NCBI GenBank assembly: GCA_003222055.1
Contig: QHUT01000086.1
Span: 1-39,682 of the forward strand
Length of the DNA: 39,682 bases
Direction: 5' to 3'
Source: Gemmatimonadota bacterium
GTDB lineage: Bacteria > Gemmatimonadota > Gemmatimonadetes > Gemmatimonadales > GWC2-71-9
Shown here: positions 35,092 through 37,953 of the stretch, piece after piece
Layout of the letters: every line of letters begins with the position of its first letter
How positions within the stretch are numbered: the first letter of the stretch is position 1
The notes under the pieces: model-generated
What the model was told of the DNA's origin: nothing
What the model saw: the letters and a program-made list of their open reading frames with translations, nothing else
Databases searched by the model: none
Made by a program: the position numbers and the translations under genes

Positions 35092-37047
35092 ATGACAGCG
35101 ACCCAGGCGCTGGGGTGGGCGCTCGTGCACTCGCTGTGGCAGTGCGCGCTCGCCGCCGCGGGCCTCGCCTCCCTCTTGGGCATCCTTCCGTCGCGCGCGG
35201 CGCGCATCCGCTATGCGTTCGCTACCGCCACGCTGATCTTGATGGTCGCTCTACCGCTGGGCACCGCGTTGTCGCTGTACGGGGCGTCGCCGTGGCGGCC
35301 CGACGCGACTGCGGCGATGCTCGCTCCGGCCCAGACACCGGCGGATCTGGCCGTCATCGCCTTGAAGCTCGCGGCTCGGGTCCGCACGGCGCTCGAGCTC
35401 GCGCTGCCGCAGATTGTCGTGCTGTGGGCCGCCGGTGTGGTCGGGTTCTCCCTGCGGCTGGCGTCGGCGTGGATGGCGGCGCGACGTCTTGCGGTGATGG
35501 GCACGCGCCCCGCGCCCCCCGCCCGCGCCGCGGCGCTGGAACGCCTGGCGGCAAGGCTGCGCGTGACGCGGCCGGTGCGCGTCCTCGAGTCGACCCTGGT
35601 CCAGGTACCCGCCGTCATCGGGTGGCTGCGCCCGGTGATCCTCGTCCCTGCGACCGCGCTCACGGGGCTCACGCCGCTCCAGCTCGACGCGCTGCTGGCC
35701 CACGAGCTCGCGCACATCCGGCGGTACGACTACCTCGTCCGCGTCCTCCAGTCCGTGATCGAGACCCTGCTGTTTTACCACCCGGCGGCGTGGTGGGTGT
35801 CGCGGCGCGTGGGGGAGGAGCGCGAGCATTGCTGCGACGACGTGGCCGTCGCCGTGTGCGGTGACGCGCGCTTGTACGCGCAGGCGCTGGTGGGCATGGA
35901 GCGGCTTCGAGGCGCGCAGCCGGCATTCGTGTTCACCGCGGCACGTGGCTCCCTCGTACACCGCATCCGGCGTCTCGTGGCGCCCGCGCCGGCGGACACC
36001 CCACCGCCCTGGGTCGCTGGCATGGCCGTCACGACCCTCCTCCTGGTGGCGGGCGCCGGGTCTTGGCTCGCGCGCACGGCACCGGACACGTTGCTCCGCC
36101 CGCACGAGTCAGCCGCCCGTCCCGCTGCTCGGCTTGCGCGAGGCGAAAGCGAGCTCCGCGCGCGAACCGGGCGCTCGGGCGTTACGCCTGCCAATCCGCA
36201 GTTGTTGAGCCGGGGACTCGCTCCGGTCGACATCCGGCGCTCGTCGCCAACGGGTCCTCAGGAAATCGCTCCGCACGCCGACTCGCGGGAGTTCTCAACC
36301 GAGCGCCGTCGCGAGGCGCAGGCTGACGCGCCAGCACCCCCGACGCTCGATGCAGCGACCAGCCGTGTCGGCACGTCGGGTGGGCGGCCCCTGTGGCAGC
36401 GGCCGCTGTTGCTCGGGTCCGTGGGCGTAATTCTCACCGGATTCGCCGACCAGCAAATCCGGCTCGACGTGCAAGAGGAAGTGCAGGAGGACGACGGAGG
36501 CGAACCCCGAGCGGCTGGATCGGCGGTCGGTCACTGGAGTACGCCCGTCGTCCTTGGTATCAGCGCGGGCCTTCTGGGTGCGGGACTCGGCACACACCGC
36601 CCCGGCCTCACGCGGACGGGGCGCGATGCACTCGTCGCGGTGGGCGTCGCCTCGCTTCTCGCGACGACGACGGACATCGCTATTGGTCGCGCGCATCCGG
36701 AAGCGAATCGCGGGACGGACTATTTCGCGCCCTTCCACGTTCCCAGCCAGAACAACTCGTTTCCGTCTGGACACACCTCGCGCGCGTTCGCCCTCGCCGC
36801 GGTGGTCGCCGCGCACACGCGGCAACCGGCGATACGCGTCATCGTCTACGGTGCGGCCGCGGCGGTAGGGATCGCTGAAGTCGTCGCCGACCGGCACTTC
36901 GCCTCGGATGTCGTCGGCGGGGCCGTGCTCGGGACGTTGGTCGGACAGGGGGTGGTTCGCCACTTCGCGACCGCGTCCGCACCCGTAGGACTGGCGGTGA
37001 CGATGCTTCCCGGACGCGTCGGGATCGGGCTCCATCGGCAGCTCTAG
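35092..37047 (+). CDS. M56 (BlaR1-type) membrane metallopeptidase fused to a PAP2-phosphatase-like domain
   Basis: A 651-residue protein with two parts. Residues 1-310 are an M56 peptidase: hydrophobic N-terminal helices, zinc motif HELAHIRRYDYL (His204, Glu205, His208), FYHPAAWWVSRRVGEEREHCCDD with a third metal ligand region (about 230-250), and a final membrane helix WVAGMAVTTLLLVAGAG. About 330-440 is a low-complexity linker. Residues about 445-640 resemble PAP2: PSGH at 558-561, a histidine at 602 and an Asp at 606 in VVADRHFASDVVGG. Phosphate-binding positions are changed: Asp528 and His535 stand where KxxxxxxRP has Lys and Arg, and Ala595-Glu596 where SR is expected. BlaR1 proteins sense cell-wall stress and usually pair with a BlaI repressor; none lies here. 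Sensing or processing linked to lipid pyrophosphates is inferred. GAGGGGGGG precedes the start. Confidence 0.8.
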   Translation: MTATQALGWALVHSLWQCALAAAGLASLLGILPSRAARIRYAFATATLILMVALPLGTALSLYGASPWRPDATAAMLAPAQTPADLAVIALKLAARVRTALELALPQIVVLWAAGVVGFSLRLASAWMAARRLAVMGTRPAPPARAAALERLAARLRVTRPVRVLESTLVQVPAVIGWLRPVILVPATALTGLTPLQLDALLAHELAHIRRYDYLVRVLQSVIETLLFYHPAAWWVSRRVGEEREHCCDDVAVAVCGDARLYAQALVGMERLRGAQPAFVFTAARGSLVHRIRRLVAPAPADTPPPWVAGMAVTTLLLVAGAGSWLARTAPDTLLRPHESAARPAARLARGESELRARTGRSGVTPANPQLLSRGLAPVDIRRSSPTGPQEIAPHADSREFSTERRREAQADAPAPPTLDAATSRVGTSGGRPLWQRPLLLGSVGVILTGFADQQIRLDVQEEVQEDDGGEPRAAGSAVGHWSTPVVLGISAGLLGAGLGTHRPGLTRTGRDALVAVGVASLLATTTDIAIGRAHPEANRGTDYFAPFHVPSQNNSFPSGHTSRAFALAAVVAAHTRQPAIRVIVYGAAAAVGIAEVVADRHFASDVVGGAVLGTLVGQGVVRHFATASAPVGLAVTMLPGRVGIGLHRQL

Positions 37048-37067: not shown

Positions 37068-37424
37068 TCATTCTTCATCCTCGACGAACATCCTCAAGCG
37101 TTCGGCCGCGTCGTCCCATTGTGCCGCGATCTGGTCGAGGTACCGCTTTGCCCTCTCCAAGCGCTTGGGGTTCAGGTCCCAGACCTGCTCACGCCCCCGG
37201 CGGGCGTGGCGCACGAGCCCCGCACGCCCGAGTGCGTGGAGGTGGCGCGTAATCGCCTGACGCGTCACCCCGGTCCCTTCACTGAGACGAGTAATCGAAA
37301 GTGGCCCGCCCGCAGAGAGGCGTCCCAGCAGGCGGAGTCGCGTCGCATCCCCCAACGCGGCGAACAGCGGCACCGCGTCGGGGGGGGGCAGCTGCAGCGC
37401 GGCAGAGCCGCGGCTACGCGACAT
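37068..37424 (-). CDS. ArsR-family winged-helix repressor
   Basis: A 118-residue repressor-type protein. The DNA-binding unit is FAALGDATRLRLLGRLSAGG (about 21-40), then ITRLSEGTGVTRQAITRHLHALGRAGLVRHARRGREQVWDLN, with the recognition helix TRQAITRHLHAL. No Cys pair for metal binding is seen, so it is not an arsenic or zinc sensor of the usual type. The C-terminal WDDAAERLRMFVEDEE tail is common in ArsR proteins paired with SRPBCC genes. It is the second gene of the operon; its ATG at 37424 overlaps the SRPBCC stop by 11 nt. The 5' coding part carries a run of nine C on this strand's complement (G9 at 37380-37388), at codons 12-15. Confidence 0.92.
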   Translation of the reverse strand: MSRSRGSAALQLPPPDAVPLFAALGDATRLRLLGRLSAGGPLSITRLSEGTGVTRQAITRHLHALGRAGLVRHARRGREQVWDLNPKRLERAKRYLDQIAAQWDDAAERLRMFVEDEE

Positions 37425-37893
37425 ACCGCGCGAGGTGCTTGATCTGCCCGGTCCACCCGTTGTCGTTCATGCGGAACGCTTCGGCGCGACGCGTGAGCGG
37501 GATGCGATCAAACCCGGACTCGACAATCGTGAGCGCGGTGCCGCCTTCTGTTTCCTCGAGCTTGAACTCGACCAGGGTGGTGGGCTCGGCCGAGTAGTCC
37601 TGCTTGGGGTCGATCGCGTAGGGGTGCCAGCGATAGGAGAAGTACCGCTCGGGGTCGATGCGCTCGACCAGCATTTCCAGCGTCACATGCTCGTAGCCCG
37701 GTATGGCCATCCTGCCCCGGATCGGCCTGCCCTCGGCAAACGCGCCCTCGAGGTTGACCCGGAACCAGGTGCCAAACTCTGCCGCGTTCGTGAGGGCGCG
37801 CCACACACGCGTGCGTGGGGCGCGGAGCACGACCTGTTTTTCGATCCGATCGGTGCTCACCGTGTCGTCGGGCGCTTCGGTCTTGACTGCCAT
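37414..37893 (-). CDS. SRPBCC/AHSA1-domain protein
   Basis: A 159-residue protein of the Bet v1-like START superfamily (AHSA1 group). It begins with the IEKQVVLRAPRTRVWRALTNAAEFGTWFRVNLEG block, with YFSYRWHPYAIDP and TLVEFKLEETEGGTALTIVESGFD following. The fold is a hydrophobic cavity for a lipid-like ligand; in AHSA1-ArsR pairs the exact role is unknown. GGAGGG precedes the ATG at 37893. It is the first gene of the SRPBCC-arsR operon. An alternative in-frame ATG at 37944 would lie within the proposed operator and is unlikely. Confidence 0.9.
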   Translation of the reverse strand: MAVKTEAPDDTVSTDRIEKQVVLRAPRTRVWRALTNAAEFGTWFRVNLEGAFAEGRPIRGRMAIPGYEHVTLEMLVERIDPERYFSYRWHPYAIDPKQDYSAEPTTLVEFKLEETEGGTALTIVESGFDRIPLTRRAEAFRMNDNGWTGQIKHLARYVA

Positions 37894-37937
37894 GGGTGAT
37901 CCCTCCGCAACCAGGTAAAAAGGCCGTTGCTTTATAT

Positions 37938-37953
37938 GCAACATTCGTGTTGC
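37938..37953. promoter_or_regulatory. Operator-like dyad 1 (GCAAC-N6-GTTGC)
   Basis: Perfect inverted repeat with arms GCAAC and GTTGC and spacer ATTCGT; the arms extend one base (A/T) inward. It sits immediately downstream of the TATAAT on the minus strand, where a bound ArsR protein would block initiation. Same arm and spacing as dyad 2, 43 bp away. Confidence 0.65.

Follow-up and report, generated by a model that had tools for sequence, protein, structure and literature searches.

A BlaR1-type M56 metalloprotease joined to a PAP2-derived domain with altered phosphate contacts in a soil Gemmatimonadota bacterium

The M56-PAP2 gene and its recurrence

The window, a stretch of 39,682 nucleotides from the MAG-like assembly (3.69 Mb) of a soil Gemmatimonadota bacterium, contains a single ORF without internal stops whose product joins an M56 peptidase part to a PAP2-derived part (Table 1). 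In a Pfam profile search of the 651-aa protein, both domains score above their cut-offs, with Peptidase_M56 matching residues 78-292 (E 2.9e-26, 92.8 bits; gathering cut-off 31 bits) and PAP2 matching residues 513-625 (E 7.6e-16, 58.5 bits; cut-off 27.2 bits). An earlier note had recognised both domains by their motifs, and this assignment is borne out, as are all of its residue positions (HELAH 204-208, D528, H535-P536, PSGH 558-561, A595-E596, H602 and D606). The gene is flanked by a DUF1697 gene and by a divergent ArsR/AHSA1 pair (37068-37944, minus strand), in which the genes for the ArsR-type regulator and the AHSA1-domain protein overlap and adjoin the fusion.

Table 1. Features of the M56-PAP2 gene, by position in the window
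Feature	Position	Strand	Basis
M56-PAP2 fusion gene, 651 aa	35092..37047	+	ORF and Pfam; 77% identical full-length protein in the AG20 MAG
M56 (BlaR1-type) membrane metalloprotease part, residues 1-331	35092..36084	+	Pfam M56 78-292, hydropathy, AlphaFold, fold match
Zinc motif HELAH, residues 204-208	35701..35715	+	H204, E205, L206 and H208 invariant in 33 aligned M56 proteins
EHCCD, residues 245-249, equivalent to the BlaR1 E242xxxD gluzincin motif	35824..35838	+	E245 and D249 invariant; motif per PMC9834060
Linker, residues 332-432, poorly conserved	36085..36387	+	55% identity to AG20, dN/dS 0.62, pLDDT mostly <60
PAP2-derived part, residues 433-651 (Pfam core 513-625)	36388..37044	+	Pfam; tree groups it with AG20 and AG12
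C1 motif DIAIGRAHP, residues 528-536; family KxxxGRxRP	36673..36699	+	Stand-alone relatives: K 27/27, R 26/27
C2 motif PSGH, residues 558-561, intact; PSGQ in AG20	36763..36774	+	Alignment
C3 motif AEVVADRHFASD, residues 595-606; Arg596 to Glu, His602 and Asp606 kept	36874..36909	+	R in 27/27 stand-alone relatives

The same architecture recurs in a second MAG of the same genus (QHUU01000010.1, handle G009; here AG20), whose protein is 77% identical over residues 1-650 and reaches 52.7 bits against Pfam PAP2. As the genes flanking the two fusions are unrelated to each other, the joining of two separate genes by an assembly or sequencing error, which the earlier note had named as a possible flaw, is ruled out and the fusion is genuine. 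At the DNA level the two genes are about 84% identical; in blastn, similarity extends from 14 bp ahead of the start codon to the stop codon, with patches farther upstream appearing in a forced alignment. As a reference, a syntenic 13-kb segment that carries a blaI-M56-HEAT operon shows 93.3% identity between the two genomes; the HEAT-tailed M56 gene in it has a dS of about 0.12, whereas that of the fusion gene is 0.34. The two fusion genes were therefore not accepted as simple positional orthologues, and the confinement of similarity to the gene, together with a divergence above that of the syntenic segment, points to a gene that moved or was transferred between loci or else is an old duplicate. 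Between the two copies, dN/dS is 0.36 for the M56 part and 0.34 for the PAP2 part, falling to 0.25 in the PAP2 core, the most constrained part of the fusion; the linker is given in Table 1. On these ratios, each half is under purifying selection.

The distribution of the fusion is narrow. Within 288 genomes of the order, the complete fusion occurs in the window and in AG20, and the genome AG12 adds a truncated, candidate member, whose PAP2 gene is cut by a contig end; no others were found in these genomes at comparable PAP2 similarity. A survey of 53 M56 proteins related to the fusion, drawn from several phyla, gave no further case. Nor did ten of the longest PAP2 ORFs among the matches listed for 121 genomes of the phylum, whose extra length, so far as it can be read, is frame that runs open beyond the gene, and a plasmid search returned M56 matches only. 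A search of an open-access paper library yielded neither a described M56-PAP2 fusion, in keeping with the earlier note, to which none was known, nor a paper on a PAP2 pseudoenzyme. M56 receptors with exchanged tails are already widespread, and it is the PAP2 tail on an M56 protein that is newly seen.

The M56 part and its BlaR1-like relatives

An alignment of 33 M56 proteins has 29 invariant columns, and the fusion retains all of them. The zinc site of S. aureus BlaR1 and its supporting residues comprise His201, Glu202, His205, Asp210, Glu242xxxD, Tyr261 and Arg294 (PMC9834060), and these correspond, by motif and spacing, to H204, E205, H208, D213, E245, D249, Y262 and R294 of the fusion. The zinc motif previously described as intact is thus present with the BlaR1 catalytic set around it. 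The profile match and zinc-site motifs place the protein in peptidase family M56, for which proteolysis is predicted. In an AlphaFold model of the full protein, pLDDT is mostly >90 over the M56 part, whose best fold match in the PDB is S. aureus BlaR1. Hydropathy marks strongly hydrophobic segments at residues 14-32, 42-60, 103-121 and 308-326; these four are compatible with the N-out/C-out plan of BlaR1 (PMC9834060), a correspondence that would place the tail outside the cytoplasm.

In common with BlaR1/MecR1 (e.g. S. aureus BlaR1, PDB 8exp-8ext; PMC9834060), the fusion is a membrane gluzincin of the M56 type, with HEXXH, ExxxD, Asp, Tyr and Arg, in which four transmembrane segments are followed by a C-terminal domain. 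In BlaR1, however, that domain is a penicillin-binding sensor, whereas the fusion carries the PAP2-derived tail. The fusion scores 68.4 bits against the NCBIfam BlaR1 model, below its cut-off of 400, and is not a BlaR1-BlaI beta-lactam system: it has no penicillin-binding tail and no adjacent BlaI/MecI repressor or operator. Its closest M56 kin are HEAT-tailed. The M56 tree places the fusion within the HEAT-tailed M56 proteins of its bacterial family, as sister to a protein of genome AG45 (L047; support 100/95). The M56 parts of these proteins (G000:C75, L047 of AG45 and L049 of AG12) are roughly 55-68% identical to that of the fusion (61% for the own-genome paralogue on contig C75), but they bear HEAT repeats instead of PAP2. 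Across 53 M56 relatives the tails vary greatly between phyla, so tail exchange appears to be normal in this family. Four M56 proteins (L052, L064, L094 and L096) carry a long tail that resembles, by eye, a polysaccharide deacetylase and may represent another M56-enzyme fusion.

The earlier remark that no BlaI gene is adjacent also holds, the genome's BlaI genes lying on other contigs, namely C75, C36, C47 and C8. There are four M56 and four BlaI genes, three pairs of which are adjacent on shared contigs, leaving the fusion without a BlaI and one BlaI, on contig C8, without an M56. This orphan (G000:C8:11641-11979; L104:5618-6022, minus strand) encodes a BlaI-family repressor and is divergent from a Vgb_lyase-family gene. 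A role as obligate partner of the fusion is not supported, since AG20 has no comparable unpaired BlaI. The HEAT-tailed paralogue on C75, unlike the fusion, lies behind blaI at a locus that bears the operator CTACGAACGCCTTCGTA (CTACGAA-N4-TTCGTA), the only perfect copy in the genome; no such site occurs in the window with up to 3 mismatches allowed, and a CTACGAA upstream of the AG20 fusion gene resembles a half-operator only weakly. The same palindrome, a likely BlaI operator, was observed near M56/BlaI loci upstream of L050, L053, L056, L057, L059, L075, L076, L094 and L098, spanning Gemmatimonadota, Acidobacteriota, Planctomycetota and Ignavibacteriota. Since the sister protein L047 also lacks an adjacent blaI, the loss of blaI linkage may predate the tail swap. 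In AG45 and AG12, the HEAT-tailed M56 genes that lack a blaI neighbour (L047:4974-5984 and L049:4242-5273, minus strand) both lie divergently beside an M23 peptidase gene, a neighbour that hints at a cell-wall link.

Ancestry and residue losses of the PAP2 part

Elsewhere in the order, the relatives of the PAP2 part stand alone as separate proteins, most of which have canonical motifs and begin with a hydrophobic, signal-like segment. Judged by alignment and tree, the PAP2 part is derived from this Gemmatimonadota secreted family, and the domains from the window, AG20 and AG12 group as a single clade (support 99/98). The scaffold, the GR and PSG elements, the nucleophile His and the Asp are common to the fusion, to secreted family members (L032, L024 and L123) and to PgpB, LpxE and the class A acid phosphatases. 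What sets the fusion apart from these is the lack of the C1 Lys and of the Arg residues that contact phosphate and, in comparison with the secreted proteins, its junction to M56, whose helices stand in place of the signal peptide. The AlphaFold prediction is poor for this part (pLDDT 39.8 alone, mostly <60 within the full model). An apparent beta segment ending in a terminal Phe, resembling the ends of outer-membrane proteins, was seen at the C-termini of the stand-alone relatives L020, L023, L024, L027, L031, L032 and L035 and of the AG20 and AG12 proteins.

For reference, 21 alignment columns were taken in which at least 90% of the 27 stand-alone relatives agree. The whole clade departs from them at two sites away from the pocket, G483S and W603F; apart from these, changes fall only at positions 528, 535 and 596, and additionally at 561 in AG20. 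Position 528, Lys in all 27 stand-alone proteins, is Asp in the window, Asn in AG20 and Arg in AG12; position 535, Arg in 26, is His, Gln and Arg, respectively; and position 596, Arg in all 27, is Glu in both window and AG20 and remains Arg in AG12. His561 is kept in the window protein and AG12 and replaced by Gln in AG20. With the clade-wide columns left out and six pocket positions (528, 535, 559, 561, 596 and 602) among 21, the chance that all three window changes would hit the pocket is 20/1330, about 0.015; for the four changes of AG20 it is 15/5985, about 0.0025, a value that is not independent of the first. Because AG12, with its near-intact motif residues, still has R535, H561 and R596, the pocket decay is placed by this alignment within the window/AG20/AG12 clade.

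Read against the motifs of active phosphatases, C1 (KxxxxxxRP) is lost in both complete fusions (D...HP in the window, N...QP in AG20), C2 (PSGH) is present in the window protein and is PSGQ in AG20, and C3 (SRxxxxxHxxxD) is broken in the window protein, where SR reads AE and His602 and Asp606 are kept. The altered phosphate contacts proposed earlier are confirmed for K528D, R535H and R596E, positions that are essentially invariant in the 27 relatives. S595A proved uninformative: Ala occupies this site in about one third of the relatives that are otherwise canonical in their motifs, and the corresponding PgpB mutant S200A is active (55% on C55-PP, 162% on PGP; PMC7413402), leaving Arg to Glu as the only meaningful change at C3. 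Among other E. coli PgpB mutants, K97A, at the C1 Lys, is active and harmless, R104A retains 2.0% on C55-PP and 0.4% on PGP, R201A about 25% and 0.3%, and H163A 27% and 0.09%, while the activity of H207A is virtually nil (PMC7413402). In the window protein the equivalents of K97, R104 and R201 are Asp, His and Glu, with the nucleophile kept. By comparison with these mutants, the PAP2 part would be inactive or nearly so and its former pocket a poor phosphate binder, although weak phosphatase activity is conceivable given that His602, Asp606, Ser559 and His561 are intact.

A receptor with a phosphatase-derived input domain

Several models could account for such a protein. The earlier note proposed that the PAP2 domain may be a sensor that reads a lipid-phosphate signal and triggers proteolysis; in such a model, undecaprenyl pyrophosphate or a different lipid phosphate would be bound where the active site used to be. 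PAP2 ancestry, the retention of His602, Asp606, Ser559 and His561, and a position equal to that of the BlaR1 sensor are all consistent with this. However, it was precisely the would-be phosphate holders that changed while the remainder stayed: with C1-Lys, C1-Arg and C3-Arg replaced by Asp, His and Glu (K528D, R535H, R596E), the canonical pocket becomes the least likely phosphate binder, the C2 His is also lost in AG20, and lipid-phosphate sensing through the old active site is now improbable. It is similarly doubtful that the PAP2 part is an active phosphatase of altered substrate preference tethered to the M56 protease. Such a bifunctional enzyme would suit the intact nucleophile and C2 residues of the window protein, the near-complete residue set of AG12 and the tolerance of PgpB for K97A, S200A and, on C55-PP, R201A, but R104A alone costs PgpB at least 98% of its activity (PMC7413402), the fusion adds a charge reversal at the second Arg, and AG20 has PSGQ.

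A pocket that retains no ligand signature, in a family whose tails are freely exchanged, could also belong to a passive unit, in which the PAP2 domain serves after a domain swap as a membrane or envelope anchor or for dimerisation, the M56 part receiving no input or acting through another partner. This model is unlikely, as no other part of the fusion is under tighter constraint than the PAP2 core. Decay of the whole gene would fit its patchy distribution and the active-site residues that differ even between the window and AG20, yet the frame is open in both MAGs, the M56 catalytic residues are all kept and dN/dS is 0.34-0.36 at a dS of about 0.3, and a decaying or non-functional gene is very improbable.

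The preferred reading, with a probability of roughly 55%, is a BlaR1-type signalling protease that uses a dead or nearly dead PAP2 phosphatase as its C-terminal input domain. Sequence and trees support a scenario in which, in an M56 protein of the HEAT-tailed type frequent in this family of bacteria, the tail gave way to a PAP2 domain from the secreted family of Gemmatimonadota, after which the phosphate contacts would have decayed while the scaffold was held under purifying selection. By analogy with BlaR1 topology, the last M56 transmembrane helix would replace the lost signal peptide and set the PAP2 domain on the outer face. There, it may sense or dock a periplasmic partner, whether a lipid of the membrane, a protein of the envelope or some other ligand; a phosphate bound in the former pocket is an improbable candidate. 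This input would alter how the intact zinc site cleaves a target in the cytoplasm. The gene for that target would be unlinked and might encode a BlaI-type repressor or some other protein. The idea of a phosphatase-derived domain in the sensor position, put forward previously, agrees with the PAP2 tail following the M56 part, and it is this position, together with the conservation of the scaffold, that suggests a sensor role.

More tentatively, recruitment of a PAP2 pseudophosphatase as a periplasmic input might define a new class of BlaR1-like receptor, one that watches the envelope through a dead lipid-phosphatase fold. Most M56 proteins outside beta-lactam systems have tails whose ligand is not known, whereas the tail of the fusion has a clear enzyme ancestry. 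Its active site appears to have been lost in stages, from 27 canonical or near-canonical stand-alone proteins, through the almost intact AG12, to the broken window and AG20 forms. This staged series would offer a handle on how a phosphatase is converted into a receptor and on what the non-beta-lactam relatives of BlaR1 sense.
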